Made by a program: the position numbers and the translations under genes
Part shown: in pieces, positions 1 through 8,716 of the stretch
Numbering within the stretch: the stretch's first letter is position 1
How the letters are laid out: each line of letters begins with the position of its first letter
Assembly: GCF_036227485.1 (NCBI RefSeq)
Contig: NZ_CP109479.1
Coordinates: 9,300,001 to 9,364,000 of the forward strand
Origin: Streptomyces sp. NBC_01451
GTDB taxonomy: Bacteria; Actinomycetota; Actinomycetes; Streptomycetales; Streptomycetaceae
Length of the DNA stretch: 64,000 nt
Direction of reading: 5' to 3'
The notes under the pieces: generated by a model
Told to the model about the DNA's origin: nothing
Databases searched by the model: none
What the model saw: the letters and a program-made list of their open reading frames with translations, nothing else

Positions 1-294
1 GGGTCACGCGTGGACCGTACGCTCATGGAAGCGAACCTGGCCACCGACGTACGGCACCATCGTCCCCAGCCGGCCACCCTGTCCGCGAAACCGGGAGAGA
101 ACGTCGTCAACGCGGCCTACCTCGTCCCGCGACAGCACGCGCGGAGCTTCCGGGACCGCGTGGAACTGCTCGCCGCCGGGACCGACGGTGTCCGGCTGGA
201 GATCACCGGACCCTGGGCCCCCTACTCCTTCGCCTCGCCCCCGCCGGAACAGACCGCAACGGCCGACCCCGCGATCCCGCGGACAACGCCGTGA
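1..294 (+). CDS. gvpL: Gas vesicle protein GvpL/GvpF family, C-terminal part (5' end outside window)
   Basis: Gas-vesicle accessory protein of the GvpL/GvpF family, thought to help nucleate or assemble the vesicle shell. The frame is open from base 1, so the N-terminal portion lies to the left. The visible C-terminus has the family's closing pattern: a hydrophobic strand reading NAAYLVPR, a basic helix with FRDRVELL, and the end strand GVRLEITGPWAPYSFA, followed by a short proline-rich tail. The stop codon overlaps the next start (GTGA at 291-294), which indicates translational coupling with gvpS. GvpL rather than GvpF is chosen because gvpS and gvpK follow directly, the order usual at the 3' end of Streptomyces gvp clusters; GvpF cannot be excluded from this fragment. 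Confidence 0.8.
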   Translation, partial: GSRVDRTLMEANLATDVRHHRPQPATLSAKPGENVVNAAYLVPRQHARSFRDRVELLAAGTDGVRLEITGPWAPYSFASPPPEQTATADPAIPRTTP

Positions 295-476
295 CGGCCG
301 GTGGCCCGCCCCACGCGGAAGTCGCCCTGGTCGATCTTCTCGACCGGCTCCTGGCCGGCGGTGTCGTCATCACGGGCGACCTCAGCCTCTGCATCGCCGA
401 CGTCGAACTGGTCCGCATCTCCCTGCGCGCCCTGCTCACCTCGGTCGAGGCAGCCACGGAAGGAGTCCTGACGTGA
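291..476 (+). CDS. gvpS: Gas vesicle protein GvpS (GvpA/GvpJ-like)
   Basis: Small 61-residue member of the GvpA/J/M/S family. The sequence shows the short GvpA-type core: an amphipathic helix with LVDLLDRLLAGGVVI, the turn GDLSLCIADVELV, and a second helix RISLRALLTSVE. GvpA is the shell subunit; GvpJ, GvpM and GvpS are minor paralogues believed to act in nucleation or at the caps. The GTG start at 291 overlaps the upstream stop, and its own stop overlaps the gvpK start (GTGA at 473-476), so the three genes are tightly coupled. Assignment as GvpS rather than GvpJ rests on gene order. Confidence 0.85.
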   Translation: MTAGGPPHAEVALVDLLDRLLAGGVVITGDLSLCIADVELVRISLRALLTSVEAATEGVLT

Positions 477-820
477 CGGCACAGGGTCGGCCCGGAGCCG
501 GAGCCGCGTCGGTACCGGACTCCGGACAGTCCCCGGCCCGGCGCCTCGACCTGGACAAGGACACGGTCGAACGGGACCTGGTCCGACTGGTGCTCACCGT
601 CGTGGAGTTGCTGCGCCAGCTCATGGAACGGCAGGCCATCCGCCGGGTCGAGAGGAACAACCTGACCGAGGAGCAGGAGGAACGCATCGGCATGACGCTC
701 ATGATCCTCGACGACCGCATGACCGAACTGCGCGAGCGCTACGACCTGAGCCCCGAAGACCTGAACCTGGACCTCGGTCCGCTCGGTCCCCTCCTGCCGC
801 GCCAGGAGGGGCGCCACTGA
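473..820 (+). CDS. gvpK: Gas vesicle protein GvpK
   Basis: GvpK, a 115-residue accessory gas-vesicle protein required for vesicle formation in well-studied systems. Recognisable features are the LDLDKDTVERDLVRLVLT segment, the long helix VVELLRQLMERQAIRRVE, and the acidic LTEEQEERIGMTLMILDDRM stretch, followed by the family-typical LSPEDLNLDLGPLGPLL end. The chosen GTG start at 473 overlaps the gvpS stop; a longer in-frame extension exists but would read through gvpS and has no family similarity. This is the last gene of the cluster. It converges on the BlaI-type gene, 15 bp away, with no obvious terminator between them. Confidence 0.92.
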   Translation: MTAQGRPGAGAASVPDSGQSPARRLDLDKDTVERDLVRLVLTVVELLRQLMERQAIRRVERNNLTEEQEERIGMTLMILDDRMTELRERYDLSPEDLNLDLGPLGPLLPRQEGRH

Positions 821-835
821 GGTCTCCCGACGGGC

Positions 836-1228
836 TCAGTGACCGGGGCCCTCGTGCAGCAGCTTCTCGAAGCGTTCGCGGAGGTCGGGGACGTTGCGGA
901 TCTCGTCGAGGAAGTGACCGACCGCGCTCACCCCGAAGTCCCGGATGACCTCGCGCACGGCCATCGCCGCCTCGTCCGTGACACAGGGGGCGTACGCGTA
1001 ACCCCGGCCCGCCTTGGTGCGGTTGGCCGCGCCCTTCTCGGCCAGGCGGCTCAGCACGGTCATGACGGTGGTGTAGGCCAGCGGGGTCTCACGGCCGGAG
1101 TTGAGCGCGCCGAGAACCTCCCGGACGGTCATCGGGTCGGGGGCCTGCCACAGAACCTCCATGATCTCGTTCTCCAGCGGGCCGAAGACGAGGCATTCCT
1201 GGGAGGCGCGGGATCGGTCGGCTGTCAC
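836..1228 (-). CDS. BlaI/MecI/CopY-family transcriptional repressor
   Basis: Winged-helix repressor of the BlaI/MecI/CopY family, 130 residues. The N-terminal wHTH shows FGPLENEIMEVLWQ, MTVREVLGALN and the recognition region LAYTTVMTVLSRLAEKG, ending in the GRGYAYAP wing. The C-terminal part should form the dimer interface. In beta-lactam systems the partner is a BlaR1 metallopeptidase that cleaves the repressor; no M56 peptidase lies next to it here, so its signal is unknown. It could repress itself or the divergent gene at 1541 across a 312-bp spacer. The ATG start gives the usual family length. Confidence 0.85.
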   Translation of the reverse strand: MTADRSRASQECLVFGPLENEIMEVLWQAPDPMTVREVLGALNSGRETPLAYTTVMTVLSRLAEKGAANRTKAGRGYAYAPCVTDEAAMAVREVIRDFGVSAVGHFLDEIRNVPDLRERFEKLLHEGPGH

Positions 1229-1540: not shown

Positions 1541-1933
1541 ATGGCTGTTTTCGAGTCGACCGCGGTAGCGGAGCGGGTGTTCGGCAACCTCTTCGAGATC
1601 CTGTTGAAGGACGAACAGTTCACTTCGCAGCTGCGCGCGAGCAACCTGTCCATCCGGCTGACCCACACCAACCCGGACTGCGTTGTGCATGTGACCGCGG
1701 ACGCGCTGACGGTGGGGGCCGATGCTCCCGAAGACGCGACGATCAGGATCAAGATGTCGTGCGACACCGCGCACCAGCTCTGGCTCGGGAAGCTCATGAT
1801 GCCGACCGCCATCGCCACCGGGAAAGTGCGTATCCGCGGCAAGGTGGCCCGGGTGCTGGAACTCGTCCCCATCCTGCGGCCCGCCTTCGACCGCTATCCC
1901 GAACTGGCGGCGAAGGAAGGGCTTCCCGTCTGA
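1541..1933 (+). CDS. SCP2 sterol-binding domain-like protein
   Basis: Small 130-residue soluble protein resembling a stand-alone SCP2 (sterol carrier protein 2) lipid-binding domain. The visible signature is the C-terminal half: DATIRIKMSCDTAHQLWLGK followed by AIATGKVRIRGKVARVLELVPIL, the classic SCP2 strand-helix region that lines the lipid tunnel. The ATG at 1541 was chosen because the frame upstream has no family similarity. It is the first gene of the rightward set, 98 bp before the acyl-CoA dehydrogenase. By inference it could carry or present an acyl/lipid substrate to the enzymes downstream. No catalytic residues are evident. Confidence 0.75.
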   Translation: MAVFESTAVAERVFGNLFEILLKDEQFTSQLRASNLSIRLTHTNPDCVVHVTADALTVGADAPEDATIRIKMSCDTAHQLWLGKLMMPTAIATGKVRIRGKVARVLELVPILRPAFDRYPELAAKEGLPV

Positions 1934-2031
1934 GAAATCGGCGCCCTTCGGCGCACCGGCCGACCGTTGGGCGCGGTACTTCGGCACATCCCCAGGCATT
2001 CGGATCCGAGTTACGGAGTTTCGAGACAGAC

Positions 2032-3246
2032 ATGATGAACACCGACGACCTTGAGCTCAATTTCGACGTCCTTCCCGGCGAGGTGGAGAAACTCCGCCGT
2101 CAGGTACGGGAATTCGCCCGGGAGGTCGTGGCGCCCCGCGTGACGGACCTCGACACGGCGCCCGCCGACGACTTCGACTGGGACATGGTCGCCCAGGGGC
2201 ACGCCCTGGGCCTCACGCGTGTGGCCGTGCCCAAGGAGTACGGCGGCCTCGGCCTCGGCATGATCGGCTGCGCGGTCGCGCTGGAGGAGGTGGCGTCCGT
2301 CTGCGCCGGCACCGCTCTCATCTTCGGTGCCGCCATGCTCGGCCAGACCCCGGTGCTGCTCTCTGGCGACCCGCGGCTCCAGGCCCGCTTCCTGCCCATG
2401 TTCTCGGGCGACGCCCCGGTCCTGGCCTGCAACGCGGTCACCGAGGAGGAGGCGGGCTGCGACCTGATCATCCCGGCGAACGCGGTCCACGCCCGCGATG
2501 TGATGACCGCCCGCCGCGACGGCGACCACTACGTCCTGAACGGCAAGAAGAGGTTCATCACCAACGCCCAGGTCGCCGCGTTCGCCTCGGTGTTCGCCAA
2601 CATGGAGGGCGCGCCCGGCGCCACCGGCCTCACCTCGTTCATGGTGCCGCTCGACCTGCCCGGCGTGGTCCGCGGGCCGGTGGCCGACAAGATGGGTTAC
2701 CGGCTCTGCCTCGGCAGCGAACTGGAGTTCCACGACGTCCGCATCCCCGCCGAGAACATGATCGGCGACGAGGGTGACGGCATGGCCATCAACATCGCGC
2801 AGAGCAACATGGCCCGCGCCTCCGTCGCCGGGATCTCCGTCGGCGTGGCCCGGGGCGCCCTCGAACTGGCCCTGGAGTGGTGCGACACCCGTGTCCAGGG
2901 CGGACGCCCGCTGCGCGAGCACCAGTTCACCGCGGCCAAGCTCGCCGAGATGTCCGCGAAGGTCGACGCGGCACGACTGCTGTACATGAAGGCGGCCCAC
3001 AAGGTCGACAACGAACTGCCCGCCCCGCAGTACGAACCGGCGGCGGCGAAGCTCTTCGCGGACCGCGTCGCCATCGACGTCGCCGACATGGCCATGTCCC
3101 TCACGGGAGCCCGCGGCTACGTGAAGTCCTTCGGCATGGAGAAGCGGCTGCGCGACGCCTACGGCGCGCGCATCTACGAGGGCACGCCCGAGGTGCTCGC
3201 CCTCGCCATCACCGAGAGCCTCTACGCCGACGGAGAACCGATATGA
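2032..3246 (+). CDS. Acyl-CoA dehydrogenase family protein
   Basis: FAD-dependent acyl-CoA dehydrogenase-type enzyme, 404 residues, the usual length. It shows the N-terminal helical domain (LRRQVREFAREVVAPRV), the substrate/FAD loop region AVTEEEAGCD (a variant of the TEPxAGSD motif), the beta-domain stretch HYVLNGKKRFITNA, and the C-terminal YGARIYEGTPEVL block carrying the glutamate that usually acts as catalytic base. Expected chemistry is alpha,beta-desaturation of an acyl thioester (CoA or carrier-bound). ATG at 2032 or 2035 are both possible. The stop overlaps the next start (ATGA at 3243-3246), so it is co-translated with the acyltransferase candidate. The context suggests a biosynthetic rather than beta-oxidation role. 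Confidence 0.9.
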   Translation: MMNTDDLELNFDVLPGEVEKLRRQVREFAREVVAPRVTDLDTAPADDFDWDMVAQGHALGLTRVAVPKEYGGLGLGMIGCAVALEEVASVCAGTALIFGAAMLGQTPVLLSGDPRLQARFLPMFSGDAPVLACNAVTEEEAGCDLIIPANAVHARDVMTARRDGDHYVLNGKKRFITNAQVAAFASVFANMEGAPGATGLTSFMVPLDLPGVVRGPVADKMGYRLCLGSELEFHDVRIPAENMIGDEGDGMAINIAQSNMARASVAGISVGVARGALELALEWCDTRVQGGRPLREHQFTAAKLAEMSAKVDAARLLYMKAAHKVDNELPAPQYEPAAAKLFADRVAIDVADMAMSLTGARGYVKSFGMEKRLRDAYGARIYEGTPEVLALAITESLYADGEPI

Positions 3247-4190
3247 CCGGCACGGACAACGCGGTGGAAACCGCGGAACAGTTACCCGAGGGGGAGCGGG
3301 AGCGGTATGTCTCCGACATCATCCGGCTCCACTCCACCCTCGACTTCCGGTCGCTGCCCGACCACGTCCTCGGTGACCCGCTCTACTCCGTGTACGACCC
3401 GAGGGACGAGCTGATCACCCTCACGGTCGAGGACGACCAGCTCCCGCTGCGCTATCTCAACGGGATCATGGGGTTCAGGCTGGTCCAGTATCTGCGGCTG
3501 GGCTGGATGTCTCCCCAACTCGTCTACGAGCGGGCGGTCTTCCGGGAGACGGTCCGCCACCCGGAGGGCGTGCAGAACGTCCACACCGTCAGCCTGTGCA
3601 CCCGAACCGGCCGTATCCGCGGCTACATCAGCCTCGGCTGCTCCCAGGACCCCGTCTCCATGCCGCTCGACCATCCCGACCGAGGCCGGTTCTCCACCGA
3701 GGCGGCGCACGACATCGACCTGCTGGGCCGGTTCGCGGCCGACGGCGCGGGCACGCACCAGGCCTTCGAGATCAAGCGGTTCGTACGCGACCTCGAACTG
3801 CCGCCCGGCCCCAGTACCGAACGCGTCCCCTGGCATCTGCTGCTGGGCCTCGGCAGGGTCATCTCGGCCTCCGGGGAACGGATGCGCTTCATGCTGGGCG
3901 ACGCCAAGGAGAAGGTGGCGATACGGCACTTCCGGCTCACCGGCTTCGACCTCCAGATCGACCGGGGCACCTCGCCCCGGCTGCCGGAGACAGACCTCAT
4001 GGCCCCCATCTACGACCAGGACGTCATCGCCGTTCCCTTCGTGGCGCCGGTCCACGCCGACCTCGGCGACTACATGGACCTCATCGAGGACTACCTCGGC
4101 GGCGGCCCGGACGCGATGACGCTCATGGAACTGGTCGCCGCCATGAGCGCCCGCAGGTCGGGCGCGTACCGAATGAAGGAGGCGTCGTAG
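3243..4190 (+). CDS. Candidate GNAT-like N-acyltransferase (N-acyl amino acid synthase/autoinducer-synthase-like)
   Basis: Protein of 315 residues with no close family that I can name. It resembles GNAT-fold N-acyltransferases such as N-acyl amino acid synthases and LuxI-type enzymes. There is an N-terminal region with DPLYSVYDPRDELITL, a central motif AFEIKRFVRDLELP that fits the W/F-E-x-x-R-x-V-x-D strand of that superfamily, and a later helix GERMRFMLGDAKEKVAIRHF followed by LTGFDLQIDRG, which fits the acyl-donor and C-terminal elements. By inference it would join an acyl chain to an amine. It overlaps the dehydrogenase stop by 4 bp and is followed without gap by the E1-like gene. Codon 14 is TTA, a leucine codon rare in Streptomyces. 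The fold assignment is a motif impression, not a family match. Confidence 0.5.
   Translation: MTGTDNAVETAEQLPEGERERYVSDIIRLHSTLDFRSLPDHVLGDPLYSVYDPRDELITLTVEDDQLPLRYLNGIMGFRLVQYLRLGWMSPQLVYERAVFRETVRHPEGVQNVHTVSLCTRTGRIRGYISLGCSQDPVSMPLDHPDRGRFSTEAAHDIDLLGRFAADGAGTHQAFEIKRFVRDLELPPGPSTERVPWHLLLGLGRVISASGERMRFMLGDAKEKVAIRHFRLTGFDLQIDRGTSPRLPETDLMAPIYDQDVIAVPFVAPVHADLGDYMDLIEDYLGGGPDAMTLMELVAAMSARRSGAYRMKEAS
3282..3284 (+). promoter_or_regulatory. TTA leucine codon (possible bldA-dependent translation point)
   Basis: Codon 14 of the acyltransferase candidate is TTA, within the frame reading GAA CAG TTA CCC GAG. In Streptomyces TTA is read by the bldA tRNA, which becomes abundant late in development, so early TTA codons often delay expression of secondary-metabolism genes. 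I saw no other TTA while reading the surrounding operon genes, though I did not count exhaustively. Confidence 0.8.
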
Positions 4191-5090
4191 GTGAGCAGTG
4201 CTGCCGAGGCACAGGAGAAGGTCTTCTACGGGGAACTGACCACCCGTAACAAGGGCGTGGTCAGCACGGGAGAGCAGGCGGTCCTGCGGGGCGCGACCGT
4301 GCTCGTGGCCGGGTGCGGGTCCATCGGCGGGGCCGCCGTCGAGCCGCTCGCCCGGCTGGGGGTGCGCTCCTTCGTACTGGCCGACCCGGGCACGTACGAG
4401 GTGAACAACCTCAACCGGCAGAGCGCGGCGGCCACCGACGTCGACCGCAACAAGGCCACCGTGGCCGGTGAACGGGTGGCGGCCATCAATCCGCACGCCC
4501 ACGTCAGGGTCTTCCCGGAGGGGGTCACCGAGGAGACGGTGAAGGAGCTGGTCGGCGACTGCGACGTCATCGTGGACGGCGTGGACGTGACCACCATGGA
4601 CGGCTGGCGGGCCAAGCACCTGCTCCACCGCCTCGCCGTGGAGCGACGGCTGCCGCTGGTCACCGGGTGGGACATCGCCGGCGCCCAGTACGTGCGCTGC
4701 TACGACTACCGGTACATCAAGGAGCCGTTCGACGGTGCCATCGCCGAGGCGGATCTGGACCGGCTGACCTCCTGGCAGCTGCTGCTGCGGGCCGTGCCGC
4801 TGCGGTACGTGCCGGTGGAGATGCTCGTCGAGGTGAGGGCGAACCTGGGGCGGCCCGACTACAGCTTCCCCCAGGTCACCTATGTCGCCATGATGTTCGG
4901 CGCCCTCACCTCGCACATGGTGGTGAAGCTGCTCGCGGGGGAGACCGTGCGCCCGGAGGTGTACATCGACGTGCACCAGCAGGCCCGCTCGACGCGGCGC
5001 CGGATGGCCACCCGGCTGCACCGGGCCGCGGCACTCGCCGCCCTGGCGCCGGGACTGCTCAGGCTGGCCCGCGGCCGTAGGGAGAGCTGA
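4191..5090 (+). CDS. E1-like (ThiF/MoeB/HesA) adenylyltransferase
   Basis: ATP-dependent adenylating enzyme of the ThiF/MoeB/E1 superfamily, 299 residues. The nucleotide-binding Rossmann motif is VLVAGCGSIGG (residues ~35-45), followed by LADPGTYEVNNLNRQ with the conserved aspartate and arginine, then DRNKATVAGERVAAINP and CDVIVDGVD. These are the E1 catalytic elements that adenylate a C-terminal carboxylate. The paired CxxC zinc ligands of MoeB/ThiF are not visible, and no obvious E1 cysteine sits in the crossover region, so it probably adenylates a small molecule or peptide rather than running a full sulphur-relay or ubiquitin-like cascade. The tail is Arg/Leu-rich. GTG at 4191 follows the upstream stop directly, with AAGGAGG just before it. 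Confidence 0.85.
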   Translation: MSSAAEAQEKVFYGELTTRNKGVVSTGEQAVLRGATVLVAGCGSIGGAAVEPLARLGVRSFVLADPGTYEVNNLNRQSAAATDVDRNKATVAGERVAAINPHAHVRVFPEGVTEETVKELVGDCDVIVDGVDVTTMDGWRAKHLLHRLAVERRLPLVTGWDIAGAQYVRCYDYRYIKEPFDGAIAEADLDRLTSWQLLLRAVPLRYVPVEMLVEVRANLGRPDYSFPQVTYVAMMFGALTSHMVVKLLAGETVRPEVYIDVHQQARSTRRRMATRLHRAAALAALAPGLLRLARGRRES

Positions 5091-5094
5091 CGCG

Positions 5095-6507
5095 ATGTCC
5101 GACCTCCATGAGATGACGGCGCTCGAACAGGCCGCCGCCGTCGCCGGGGGCGAACTGTCCCCGGTCGAACTGGCCGACCACTACCTCGGCCGGATCGAGG
5201 AAGCGGACAAGGAACTGGGCGCGTACCTCACGGTCACCGCCGAACTCGCCCGGTCCCAGGCCGAGCGTGCCGAGCGGGAGGCGGTGACGGCACGCCGGGA
5301 CGGTACGCGGCTGGGAGCGCTGCACGGGGTGCCCGTGCCGATCAAGGACCTCGTCCAGGTCGAGGGGGTGCGGTGCACCTGGGGTTCGGCGGTCTTCGCC
5401 GACCACGTCAGCGACACCGACGACCATGTGGCCGCCCGGCTGCGGGAGGCCGGCACGGTCATGCTGGGCAAGACCAACACCGCCGAGTTCGGGCTGCCCT
5501 GCTACACCGAGAACAGGCTGGGGCCGCCGACCCGCCATCCGCTGAACCCCGGGCGGTCGCCCGGCGGTTCCAGCGGCGGCGCGGCGGCGGCCGTCGCGGC
5601 GGGCCTCGCCCCGCTCGCGCACGGCACCGACGCCGGCGGCTCGGTACGCATCCCGGCGTCCGTCTGCGGCCTGGTCGGACTGAAGCCGAGCCGGGGCCGT
5701 ATCAGCAACGGACCCTGGCGCCCCGACGTCACGGGACTGTCGGTGCACGGCGCACTGGCCCGTACGGTGGCCGACGCGGCGGCGCTCGTCGACGTGATGG
5801 CGGGACCGATGCCGGGCGATGTGTACACCGCGCCGGCGCACCCCGGGGGCGTGTCCCTGCTGGAGCACGCACGCCGGGATCCCCGTGTCGTGCGGGTCGC
5901 GGTGCTGAAGCAGCCCATGGTGCCCGGCGCGGTACTGCACCCCGACTGCGAGGAGGCCGTCGACAACACCGCCGCCGCCCTGTCCGCGCTGGGCCACGAG
6001 GTGGAGGAGCTGGAGATGCCCCCCGACGGGGGTGTCGTGGAGGCGTTCACCCGGGTCTGGTCGGTGGAGGCGGCGTCGTACGACGTGGAACCGGGCCGTG
6101 AGGGTGAGCTGATGCCGTTCACGGCCTGGCTCAGGGAGGTCGCCGCCGGGGTGTCCGCCCGGGAGTACCACACGGCGCTCGCCACCTTCCGGGGCCTGGG
6201 GCAGATGCTCACGGACCTGCTCTTCGCCACCTACGACGTGCTCCTCTCCCCGGCGCTGGCCGAACCGCCGGTGCGGATCGGGGAGTTGCGCGACGACGCC
6301 GATCCGGCGGCCGAGTTCGCCAGGATGACCGCGTTCATGCCGTACACCGGGGTCTACAACCTCACCGGCATGCCGTCGATCACCGTCCCGCTCAGCCGGA
6401 ACGCCGGGCGTCTGCCGATCGGTGTGATGCTGGGCGCGCGGTACGCGGACGAGGCACTGCTGGTGTCGCTGGCGGCTCAGCTGCAGCAGTCCGCGACGAC
6501 GTACTGA
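5095..6507 (+). CDS. Amidase signature family enzyme
   Basis: Amidase-signature hydrolase of 470 residues, normal length. The catalytic Ser-cisSer-Lys set is present: Lys84 in PVPIKDLV, the GGSSGG serines at 159-160, and nucleophile Ser183 in DAGGSVRIPAS. The glycine/alanine-rich core GGAAAAVAAGLAPLAHGTD matches the family. Expected activity is hydrolysis of a carboxamide, or amide transfer. There is no GatC/GatB partner and no signal peptide, so it is a stand-alone cytoplasmic amidase rather than GatA. It begins 4 bp after the E1-like gene with a GGGAGAG ribosome binding site, closing the five-gene rightward set. In this context it could trim or form the amide product of the two preceding enzymes; that is inference. 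Confidence 0.92.
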   Translation: MSDLHEMTALEQAAAVAGGELSPVELADHYLGRIEEADKELGAYLTVTAELARSQAERAEREAVTARRDGTRLGALHGVPVPIKDLVQVEGVRCTWGSAVFADHVSDTDDHVAARLREAGTVMLGKTNTAEFGLPCYTENRLGPPTRHPLNPGRSPGGSSGGAAAAVAAGLAPLAHGTDAGGSVRIPASVCGLVGLKPSRGRISNGPWRPDVTGLSVHGALARTVADAAALVDVMAGPMPGDVYTAPAHPGGVSLLEHARRDPRVVRVAVLKQPMVPGAVLHPDCEEAVDNTAAALSALGHEVEELEMPPDGGVVEAFTRVWSVEAASYDVEPGREGELMPFTAWLREVAAGVSAREYHTALATFRGLGQMLTDLLFATYDVLLSPALAEPPVRIGELRDDADPAAEFARMTAFMPYTGVYNLTGMPSITVPLSRNAGRLPIGVMLGARYADEALLVSLAAQLQQSATTY

Positions 6508-6670
6508 CACCCGGGGACTGTAAGGTTCCCTTCCTTTCGGTCATTGTCTGGCGTGTATTCGACCCTCTTTGCAATGGCAGCGTTCGCGCCCGGATTGGCA
6601 GGTCAAGTCGGAGTAAAATTCAGACGGAATGTAATCCCCAATTTGTCCGGTTCTCGATAGTTCTGTGGGA

Positions 6671-6693
6671 GGGGGTACCCCTCGCGTACCCCC
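6671..6693. promoter_or_regulatory. 8-bp inverted repeat upstream of the SARP-hydrolase gene
   Basis: A perfect inverted repeat, GGGGGTAC - 7 bp - GTACCCCC, lies 89 bp before the SARP start in an unusually AT-rich spacer (about 6520-6770). A TATAGT hexamer at 6729-6734 could be a -10, without a clear -35. The repeat may be an operator; it lacks a U-run, so it is a poor terminator for the amidase operon. Confidence 0.4.
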
Positions 6694-6781
6694 TGTATTC
6701 CCTACTCTTTCCGGGTTGTGCGGCTCGGTATAGTAATCCCGTCGCCTTGGGGAGAGGCGGCGATCCTGGGGAGGATGGGGG

Positions 6782-8716
6782 ATGCTGGTGGAGCTGAATG
6801 TTCTCGGGGCGCTCGAAATGCGTGTGGGTGGGAAATCCGTGGTTCCCTCCGCACCGAAACTTCGACAGATATTCACGCTGCTGGCCATTCGGGCGAACAC
6901 CGTTGTGACGGTCTCCGAGATCGTCGAGGAAGTCTGGACGGGTGTGCCCCCGAAGAGTCTGTCCACCACCCTGCAGACCTATATTCTGCAGCTGCGCAAG
7001 ATACTGAGGGAGGCGCGGTCGGAGGCCGTCGGCGCGGGGCGTGAATCCAACGGTGTCGAAGGTTTCATCGTGACCTACGACGGTGGATATCTTTTCAGCG
7101 CACCGCAGTCCATGCGGAAGGACTTCGAGGAATTCACCGGTTCTGTCGAGACCGGGCACCAGTACATGCGAAACGGAAAGAACGCGGAGGCGGCCGAACT
7201 GCTGGGCGAGGCACTCGCACTGTGGCGCGGCAACGTACTCGTCGACGTCCGGCGCGGATCGGTCCTGGACGCCTACGCGGTCAAGCTGGAGGAGGTGCGC
7301 CTCTCCGCGCAGATCCTGCGCCTGGACGCCTGCCTCGGACAGGGCGCCGATCTGCATCTCATCCCCGAACTGAACGCGCTGGCCGCCCTGCATCCCCTGA
7401 ACGAGACACTGCAGTACCAGCGGATGATCGCGCTGTACCGGGCAGGTCAGGTCGCCGAGGCGCTCAGCAGCTACCGGACCTTCTACTCCGAAGTGATGGA
7501 GCAGGTGGGGATAGAACCCTCCACGCACCTGAGGGACCTGCAGTCCGCCATCCTGAACTCCGCGCCGGCTCTGTCGGCCGTGGCCACCTCCGAGGAGATC
7601 CGCCGATGTGTCTCGGGCGACGACGCCGACGGCGGAGAGGGCGGGGAGGGGCACCCCGGCCAGCAGGGCGCGGAGCGAGGGTCCGGCGGGGACACGCGGC
7701 ACAGCCAGGGAGGTGAGTGGCCGTCCGTGGTGCGCATCTCCGCGGGTGGCCACCTCCGTCGTTCTCGTCCGCCGGTGCAGTGGAGGGCGAAGCCGAAGCC
7801 GACGGAGGCGTTCCTGCAGTCCGGGACGTCGTCATCGTGGGGCGTACGCCGGATCACCCTGGACGGCGCGGGCGTCCCCCTGTCCGCACTGATCAGCGAA
7901 CCCGTCGGTACACCCGCCCGGGCCGTCGTGGTCGCCGTCCACAACAGCGGTACGAACGCCGACTACTTCGACGGCCGGGCCCACCCCCAGCTGTCCCTCA
8001 TGACGCTGGGGGCCGCCCTCGGCTACACCGTCGTCGCCGTGGACCGCCCGGGCTACCGGCTCTCCGCCGCCCAACTGCCCCACGGGCTGGGCCTGATGGA
8101 CCAGGCCGCCGCGCTGCGCGCCGCCCTGGACGACCTGTCCTCCCGGTTCGCCACGGGATCCGGCTGCTTCCTGCTCGGGCACTCCTACGGCGGCAACGTG
8201 GCGTTGGCGACAGCCGCCGACCACACCCCACCCCTTCTGCTCGGTCTCGACATCTCCGGCTGCGGCCACGAATACGCCGTCGACCCGCACGAGGTGTCGG
8301 TCCTGCTCGACCGGGGCCGGTCCGCGAAGAACTGGGGCCCGCTGAACCTCTATCCGCCCGGCACGTTCCGGGGCGCACGTTCCCGGGCCGAGGACATGCC
8401 CGCCCGGGAACGCGCCGAACTCGCGAGCAGGCCCGGGCTGTTCCGCTCCGTCGCGCCGCGCGTACGGGTCCCCGTACGGCTGACGTTCGCCGAACACGAT
8501 GCGTGGTGGCGGCAGGACGCCGACACGCTGGCCGACCTGGCCGCACAGTTCGTCGCCGCCCCTCGCGTCACCGTCGACCGCCAGCCGGACGCCGGTCACA
8601 ACATCAGCCTCGGCTGGGCCGCCCGTTCGTACCACTTGCGCGCCCTGGCCTTTCTGGAGAGTTGCCTGGTTCCCCGTGAGACGACACACGCCGAACGTTC
8701 TGCGGCGGTGTCGTGA
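6782..8716 (+). CDS. SARP-family regulator fused to an alpha/beta hydrolase
   Basis: A 644-residue protein with two parts in one uninterrupted frame. Residues ~1-95 are an OmpR-like winged helix (NVLGALEMRVGGKSV, SAPKLRQIFTLLAIRANTVV) and ~105-258 a bacterial transcriptional activation domain (EALALWRGNVLVDV to VGIEPSTHLRDLQSAIL), together a SARP. After a Gly/Ser/Arg-rich linker (~270-345), residues ~355-635 form an alpha/beta hydrolase with nucleophile elbow GHSYGG (Ser468), Asp573 in AEHDAWW and His606 in DAGHNISLGW, a complete triad. SARPs activate secondary-metabolite operons, so the adjacent set at 1541-6507 is the likely target. SARPs usually carry NB-ARC or TPR extensions; a hydrolase is unusual and might sense or process a ligand. 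An internal GTG start near 7730 could also release the hydrolase alone. Confidence 0.88.
   Translation: MLVELNVLGALEMRVGGKSVVPSAPKLRQIFTLLAIRANTVVTVSEIVEEVWTGVPPKSLSTTLQTYILQLRKILREARSEAVGAGRESNGVEGFIVTYDGGYLFSAPQSMRKDFEEFTGSVETGHQYMRNGKNAEAAELLGEALALWRGNVLVDVRRGSVLDAYAVKLEEVRLSAQILRLDACLGQGADLHLIPELNALAALHPLNETLQYQRMIALYRAGQVAEALSSYRTFYSEVMEQVGIEPSTHLRDLQSAILNSAPALSAVATSEEIRRCVSGDDADGGEGGEGHPGQQGAERGSGGDTRHSQGGEWPSVVRISAGGHLRRSRPPVQWRAKPKPTEAFLQSGTSSSWGVRRITLDGAGVPLSALISEPVGTPARAVVVAVHNSGTNADYFDGRAHPQLSLMTLGAALGYTVVAVDRPGYRLSAAQLPHGLGLMDQAAALRAALDDLSSRFATGSGCFLLGHSYGGNVALATAADHTPPLLLGLDISGCGHEYAVDPHEVSVLLDRGRSAKNWGPLNLYPPGTFRGARSRAEDMPARERAELASRPGLFRSVAPRVRVPVRLTFAEHDAWWRQDADTLADLAAQFVAAPRVTVDRQPDAGHNISLGWAARSYHLRALAFLESCLVPRETTHAERSAAVS

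Follow-up and report, generated by a model that had tools for sequence, protein, structure and literature searches.

A compact Streptomyces locus that quite likely makes an N-acyl amino acid derivative, as a sister of the lipothrenin pathway

To characterize a 64,000-nucleotide stretch (hereafter the window) of the 10.27-Mb chromosome of Streptomyces sp. NBC_01451 (contig NZ_CP109479.1, positions 9,300,001 to 9,364,000), we analyzed the genes around its left end and found a compact group that quite likely directs the biosynthesis of an N-acyl amino acid derivative, as a sister of the lipothrenin pathway. As judged from its genes, the locus probably joins a fatty acid to an amino acid, after which the conjugate is activated, and the final compound is probably not yet described, given the different finishing enzyme. 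The locus reads rightward on the forward strand and consists of an SCP2-like lipid carrier in the litI position (1541..1933; PF02036, 5e-07), an acyl-CoA dehydrogenase-family flavoenzyme (ACAD) homologous to LitJ (2032..3246; PF00441/02770/02771), an N-acyl amino acid synthase-like, GNAT-like acyltransferase homologous to LitL (3243..4190), a ThiF/E1-like adenylating enzyme homologous to LitM (4191..5090; PF00899, 6e-32) and an amidase-signature enzyme (5095..6507; PF01425, 2e-102). It is followed by a SARP fused in frame to an alpha/beta-hydrolase domain (6782..8716, forward strand; BTAD 4e-34, Abhydrolase_6 1e-09). All six reading frames had been called in an earlier, sequence-only reading of this DNA (the original prediction), and each was confirmed at the same coordinates; a Pfam scan, which covered nine genes between 836 and 10438 of the window, gave matching domains for all but the acyltransferase. 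The tight rightward run was confirmed as well: the ACAD and acyltransferase genes overlap by 4 bp, 0 bp separate the acyltransferase and E1 genes, and 4 bp separate E1 and amidase. The SCP2 stop lies 98 bp before the ACAD start.

The core of the locus corresponds to the lipothrenin (lit) cluster of Streptomyces aureus LU18118, as described in the available parts of its paper (PMC10616846). Both contain SCP2 (LitI), ACAD (LitJ), acyltransferase (LitL) and ThiF/E1 (LitM) genes in the same order, with a SARP-type regulator and an MFS transporter close by. The original prediction had known of no named cluster with its gene set; the lit cluster is a characterized match to part of that set, the four-gene core, and the amidase and the SARP-hydrolase remain outside the match. 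The proposed type of product, a lipid amide of the N-acyl amino acid kind, is well supported by this homology and by the predicted fold of the acyltransferase. Beyond this core, the lit cluster contains an AurF-type N-oxygenase, a DUF4873 protein, a dienelactone hydrolase, a fatty-acyl-AMP ligase, an acyl carrier protein (ACP), a KASIII, and a GMC oxidoreductase (PMC10616846, Table 5), whereas the window has the amidase and a BlaI-like regulator in their stead. Specifically, the amidase stands beside E1 where the lit cluster has the AurF-type diiron N-oxygenase (LitN), and Pfam found neither this enzyme nor the fatty-acyl-AMP ligase and ACP (LitD and LitF) among the nine scanned genes.

Two of the 17 loci described below, L030 and L031, are lit-type, with identities to the window proteins of 63% for ACAD, 46–47% for E1, and 25–26% for SCP2. 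Both match the published lit cluster from litD to litS; for L031, the protein lengths (L031/PMC10616846 Table 5, in residues) are: AMP-ligase 572/573, ribonucleotide-reductase-like protein 325/326, ACP 87/88, GDSL 227/228, GMC 538/539, SCP2 123/124, ACAD 420/421, acyltransferase 310/311, E1 300/297, AurF 310/311, DUF4873 109/110, dienelactone hydrolase 255/256, TetR 205/205, SARP 519/526, and sigma factor 180/181. The acyltransferase length of 310 is that of the L030 copy, since the L031 gene call begins early and gives 402. In L031, litK (85 residues) was not called, an MFS gene cut by the end of the stretch occupies the litC position, and litA and litB fall outside the fetched stretch.

The adjacent acyltransferase and ThiF-family genes also resemble those of the acyl-oxazolone pathways oxzAB, tyzACB, and trzAS, whose papers, in their available parts, report an AHL (acyl-homoserine-lactone)-synthase-like fold for TyzA and an ATP-dependent cyclization of the N-acyl amino acid by the ThiF-family partners TyzB and TrzS (PMC10404671, PMC12856293). 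Cyclization precedes oxidation with TrzS, while either order is possible for TyzACB (PMC10404671, PMC12856293). These pathways include a flavin oxidase of the nitroreductase superfamily, either fused or adjacent, whereas the window carries the ACAD, SCP2, and amidase. A tblastn search with five oxidase domains (E 0.01) that covered the 64-kb window, all 16 related loci, and the 8 kb upstream of the window (L034) found no such oxidase; the five query domains found one another, and a remote oxidase could escape tblastn. On gene content, the window locus is outside the lit cluster proper, because the two lit features tested are not found in it, and outside the oxazolone pathways, because the oxidase is not found. 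Its mode of action is probably that of the first two steps of both. Among the open-licence papers listed by literature searches, none was recognizable as describing the SCP2-ACAD-acyltransferase-E1-amidase locus.

In the first step, as homology and fold suggest, the acyltransferase would take an acyl group from a thioester, either of CoA or of a carrier, and place it on the amine of an amino acid. The protein matched no Pfam or NCBIfam model at E 0.01, Autoind_synth included, and its profile found no relative among PDB sequences at E 1. Its predicted structure adopts the AHL-synthase fold, shared with FeeM and with AHL synthases such as BjaI; it thus resembles a LuxI-type AHL synthase in fold but not in sequence family. 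In the lit cluster, deletion of litL abolished all lipothrenins, and LitL itself was entered as a hypothetical protein, with amide formation offered by the authors as a vague hypothesis (PMC10616846, available parts).

In the second step, the E1-like enzyme would adenylate the N-acyl amino acid at its carboxylate, on which the amide oxygen would close to give an oxazolone (azlactone), as reported for TyzB and TrzS; this oxazolone may then be epimerized, hydrolyzed, or passed on. The nucleotide-binding and adenylation residues (GCGSxGG, NLNRQ, D83, K88, D129, and D132) are invariant in all 17 loci. By sequence, ThiF, TcdA, and MoeB are among the solved relatives. The chemistry of TcdA is carboxylate activation followed by cyclization, which would be shared in kind with the window E1, whereas its substrate is tRNA and its sequence match is partial, covering only residues 32–161 of the 299 in the window protein. 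TcdA is the E1-like tRNA t6A dehydratase (PMC4405576, PMC13139853, available parts). A sulfur-transfer role for E1 was considered and rejected: the window protein has no CxxC, and neither a carrier protein nor a desulfurase is among the nine scanned genes. Paulomycin, in whose cluster ThiF and ACAD also occur together, was rejected as a parallel as well, its logic being different: its ThiF is MoeZ-like, lies beside a cysteine desulfurase, and was proposed for sulfur supply (PMC4425429, available parts).

Azlactones readily lose their alpha proton, and hydrolysis would follow. If LitM forms one, this would explain the change from L-threonine to D-allo-threonine by a simple chemical cause, together with the dehydrobutyrine by-product. 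This azlactone route is our reinterpretation and differs from that of the lit authors, who proposed a dehydration mechanism and read E1 as a configuration-changing dehydratase; they found that only L-lipothrenin B, the L-threonine form, was left after litM deletion, and that litN deletion abolished N-hydroxylation (PMC10616846, available parts). E1 as an oxazolone cyclase/epimerase is the probable assignment, and it links two lines of work on one kind of enzyme pair, the lipothrenins with E1 as dehydratase and the acyl-oxazolones with E1 as cyclase. In the third step, the SCP2 protein would hold the greasy intermediate, the ACAD may desaturate either the acyl chain at C2–C3 or the amino-acid part, and the amidase may open, trim, or amidate the activated intermediate. 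Export would be served by an MFS pump beside the BlaI-like regulator, and control by this putative repressor, joined in two species by the SARP-hydrolase.

Several observations weigh against this assignment of the locus and its steps. For the acyltransferase, identity to FeeM and solved AHL synthases is 9–17% in structure alignments, and to the LitL homologues of L030 and L031 just 30–31%. In the first Foldseek list, AHL synthases stood among other GNATs, and the TM (template modeling) scores were low. Since the Z scores of two ordinary GNATs (11.8 and 11.7) lie less than 1 from that of FeeM, the FeeM match alone is not distinctive. In the E1 tree, which has long branches, the window-type enzymes do not group with the oxazolone cyclases. 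The available parts of the lit paper do not mention an oxazolone and report that deletion of litJ, the ACAD gene, had minor effects only and left the fatty chains unmodified (PMC10616846). Likewise, for the stieleriacine, kyonggic acid, and thalassotalic acid pathways, the available part of the source calls the ThiF role enigmatic, with no oxazolone seen (PMC12479983). In the same tree, Rv1355c-family domains and window-type E1s form separate groups, and a MoeZ-like sequence falls among the window-type E1s on a very long branch.

Two alternative pathways differ in the role of the ACAD. Position 383, which we take to be the canonical catalytic Glu, is Glu in all 16 aligned ACADs, and the closest matches in the PDB are short- and medium-chain acyl-CoA dehydrogenases. 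Together with the adjoining SCP2 gene, these features favor an ACAD that makes a 2-enoyl thioester before N-acylation, giving an amino acid amide-linked to an alpha,beta-unsaturated fatty chain, with E1 only epimerizing or activating it. We regard this as a serious but tentative alternative, as the fatty chains were unmodified in the litJ deletion and no chain unsaturation is described in the available parts of the lit paper (PMC10616846). A rather doubtful alternative is that the ACAD replaces the nitroreductase-type oxidase and introduces a Calpha–Cbeta double bond into the N-acyl amino acid or the oxazolone made from it, yielding a dehydroamino-acid oxazolone or a ring-opened amide. The locus has an acyltransferase and E1 as in tyz, trz, and oxz, yet tblastn, which could miss a remote one, revealed no such flavin oxidase; the ACAD is also the most conserved core protein in the close group (86–97% identity), and its Glu is kept in all 16 aligned ACADs. 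Moreover, RedW and PigA, dehydrogenases of amino acids on carriers, belong to the same family, although their scores (184 and 170 bits) are far under the cut-offs and acryloyl-CoA reductase scores higher, at 246 bits, also under its cut-off. To our knowledge ACADs act on thioesters, and the operon has no carrier protein. Lipothrenin A is not described as desaturated in the available parts of the paper, and the litJ deletion was minor (PMC10616846). Because of that minor effect, the ACAD may also be auxiliary.

The amidase distinguishes the window from most of its relatives. Homologues are present in five of the 17 loci (the window, L003, L020 of S. aurantiacus, L021 of S. humi, and L006, where a contig end truncates the gene), all of the window's subgroup, and protein clustering found none in the fetched flanks of the 12 others, where an unrelated amidase could escape. 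Its Lys84, Ser159, and Ser183 motifs, presumably the catalytic triad, are present, and the gap after E1 is 4 bp in four of the five subgroup loci and 72 bp in L006. This intimate, subgroup-specific association with E1 and the intact motifs would fit an amide-forming role, in which the amidase moves the activated N-acyl amino acid to a second amine to give a lipopeptide-like amide without a nonribosomal peptide synthetase (NRPS). We consider this unlikely, as the closest solved structure is the 6-aminohexanoate cyclic dimer hydrolase, with GatA subunits also near, and no precedent was found. Similarly improbable is a broader scheme of template-free modified lipo-amino acids, in which E1 would form the azlactone, the ACAD would act on a non-thioester intermediate, and the amidase would couple or open it, all without NRPS, ribosome, or carrier protein.

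The distribution of the genes supports a conserved core. A search of 392 Streptomyces genomes detected the acyltransferase gene in 14, our own included, at 15 places, and additionally at four loci of named genomes; two of these four were counted as the same as two of the 15 places, giving 17 loci including the window. ACAD, acyltransferase, and E1 keep the same order and direction in 16 of the 17, so that the genes are indeed co-conserved as the original prediction required; in one of these, L030, a 391-bp gap with an opposite-strand 60-residue reading frame separates ACAD from acyltransferase. The remaining locus, L033, is an outlying variant with the four core families in one co-directional run, interrupted by amine oxidase, MMPL transporter, SnoaL-like, and hydrolase genes, and its acyltransferase scores 80.7 bits against our profile though not part of it. 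An SCP2 homologue adjoins ACAD in 16 of the 17 loci (by protein clustering, tested by Pfam in the window and L031), and L032 has a 106-residue reading frame at this position with no Pfam match. Of the five families predicted to co-occur, therefore, SCP2, ACAD, acyltransferase, and E1 form the conserved core, while the subgroup-only amidase lies outside it, as does the SARP-hydrolase of two species. Across 16 loci, pairwise identities of the four core proteins correlate with Spearman coefficients of 0.85–0.93 (none of 2000 permutations reached the observed value for any of the six pairs), and the main groups of the acyltransferase, E1, and ACAD trees agree. As host relatedness was uncontrolled, this correlated divergence shows joint inheritance and not function.

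Outside Streptomyces, with at most five candidates scored per genome, the acyltransferase profile found only our own genome among 396 genomes of the phylum, where distant members could escape, and the E1 profile (E 1e-30) found our own genome and two partial, uncertain matches. The ACAD, SCP2, and amidase families are common in catabolism. Fatty-acid or amide catabolism genes clustered by chance are nevertheless a very improbable explanation of the locus, given its sparse occurrence (the 14 genomes of 392), the exporter and regulator genes alongside, and a core in common with lit, whose products were isolated (PMC10616846, available parts).

Around the core, the neighbors vary, as in natural-product families. 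Downstream of E1, six loci (L022–L027; Pfam on L023, clustering for the others) carry genes for an MFS exporter, a LuxR-type response regulator, an OmpR-type regulator, a beta-ketoacyl synthase, and a reductase-hydrolase fusion; in L028 (by Pfam) and L032 a TauD-type oxygenase gene is found, L030 and L031 (the latter by Pfam) have one for an AurF-type oxygenase, and L029 has a TetR-type gene. At least four finishing sets are thus seen: amidase, ketosynthase plus reductase-hydrolase, TauD-type oxygenase, and AurF-type oxygenase. The acyltransferase and E1 pair can also serve as a search anchor for clusters whose acyltransferase escapes all Pfam models. Genome G123 holds two versions of the core, one of the amidase type (L021) and one of the ketosynthase type (L022). 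Our own genome contains a second gene of the same logic (L054:1212-3008, chromosome about 5670711-5672507), a 598-residue GNAT-ThiF fusion followed by a KASIII-type synthase.

The SARP gene starts 274 bp after the amidase gene, and a terminator-like hairpin with a T-rich tail (6513..6530, forward strand; a consensus match only) lies right after the amidase stop. The hairpin and the gap suggest that the SARP gene is a separate transcription unit; however, 3 such sites were counted in 10 kb against 2.4 expected from shuffled sequence, so that they are not rarer in shuffles. Upstream of the SARP gene, GTACCCC occurs twice as a perfect 7-bp repeat (6675 and 6686; span 6675-6692), at the 11-bp spacing typical of SARP sites, while just 6-of-7 heptamer repeats precede SCP2. 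The SARP half has a winged helix and a BTAD domain by Pfam, and the fusion is a single open frame both in the window and in S. turgidiscabies (L003), where it has 614 residues and a GTG start two codons inside the window's ATG. Among the matches listed from 295 Streptomyces genomes (at most four candidates scored per genome), only our own covers both halves. For the SARP half, a free-standing SARP encoded next to a polyketide-cyclase gene shows 62% identity; for the hydrolase half, free-standing hydrolases at six other loci show 60–70%, and some of these loci, judged by their neighbors, may be aromatic polyketide clusters. No PDB sequence relative of the hydrolase domain was found at E 0.01, and its model (mean pLDDT, the predicted local distance difference test, 53) was not used. 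The SARP-hydrolase resembles a local fusion that was either recruited to the side of the operon or stayed behind there, and it may act as a sensor of hydrolase origin. At this position, the S. humi locus (L021) instead carries a LuxR-type gene.

On the other side, a BlaI/penicillinase-repressor-like gene (836..1228, reverse strand; PF03965) diverges from SCP2. It is 97% identical in S. turgidiscabies and present in four of the five amidase-group loci, L006 having a different gene upstream of SCP2. The alignment of four loci upstream of SCP2/BlaI contains conserved stretches and, by eye, no clear palindrome that would mark a shared operator. A search of 72,556 plasmid records (E 1e-5) gave no match, and a plasmid origin was rejected. 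An MFS exporter gene directly adjoins the BlaI-like gene in S. turgidiscabies, about 31 bp away, and the BlaI-like regulator probably controls this exporter. In our genome, an approximately 4.6-kb gas-vesicle set (GvpA-type, GvpF/L, and GvpK; window 1-832 plus upstream, G000:C1:9296245-9300832) lies between the two, so it was either inserted here or lost there. The homologous MFS pump of our strain, 95% identical over 432 residues, is just beyond the window edge because this set intervenes.

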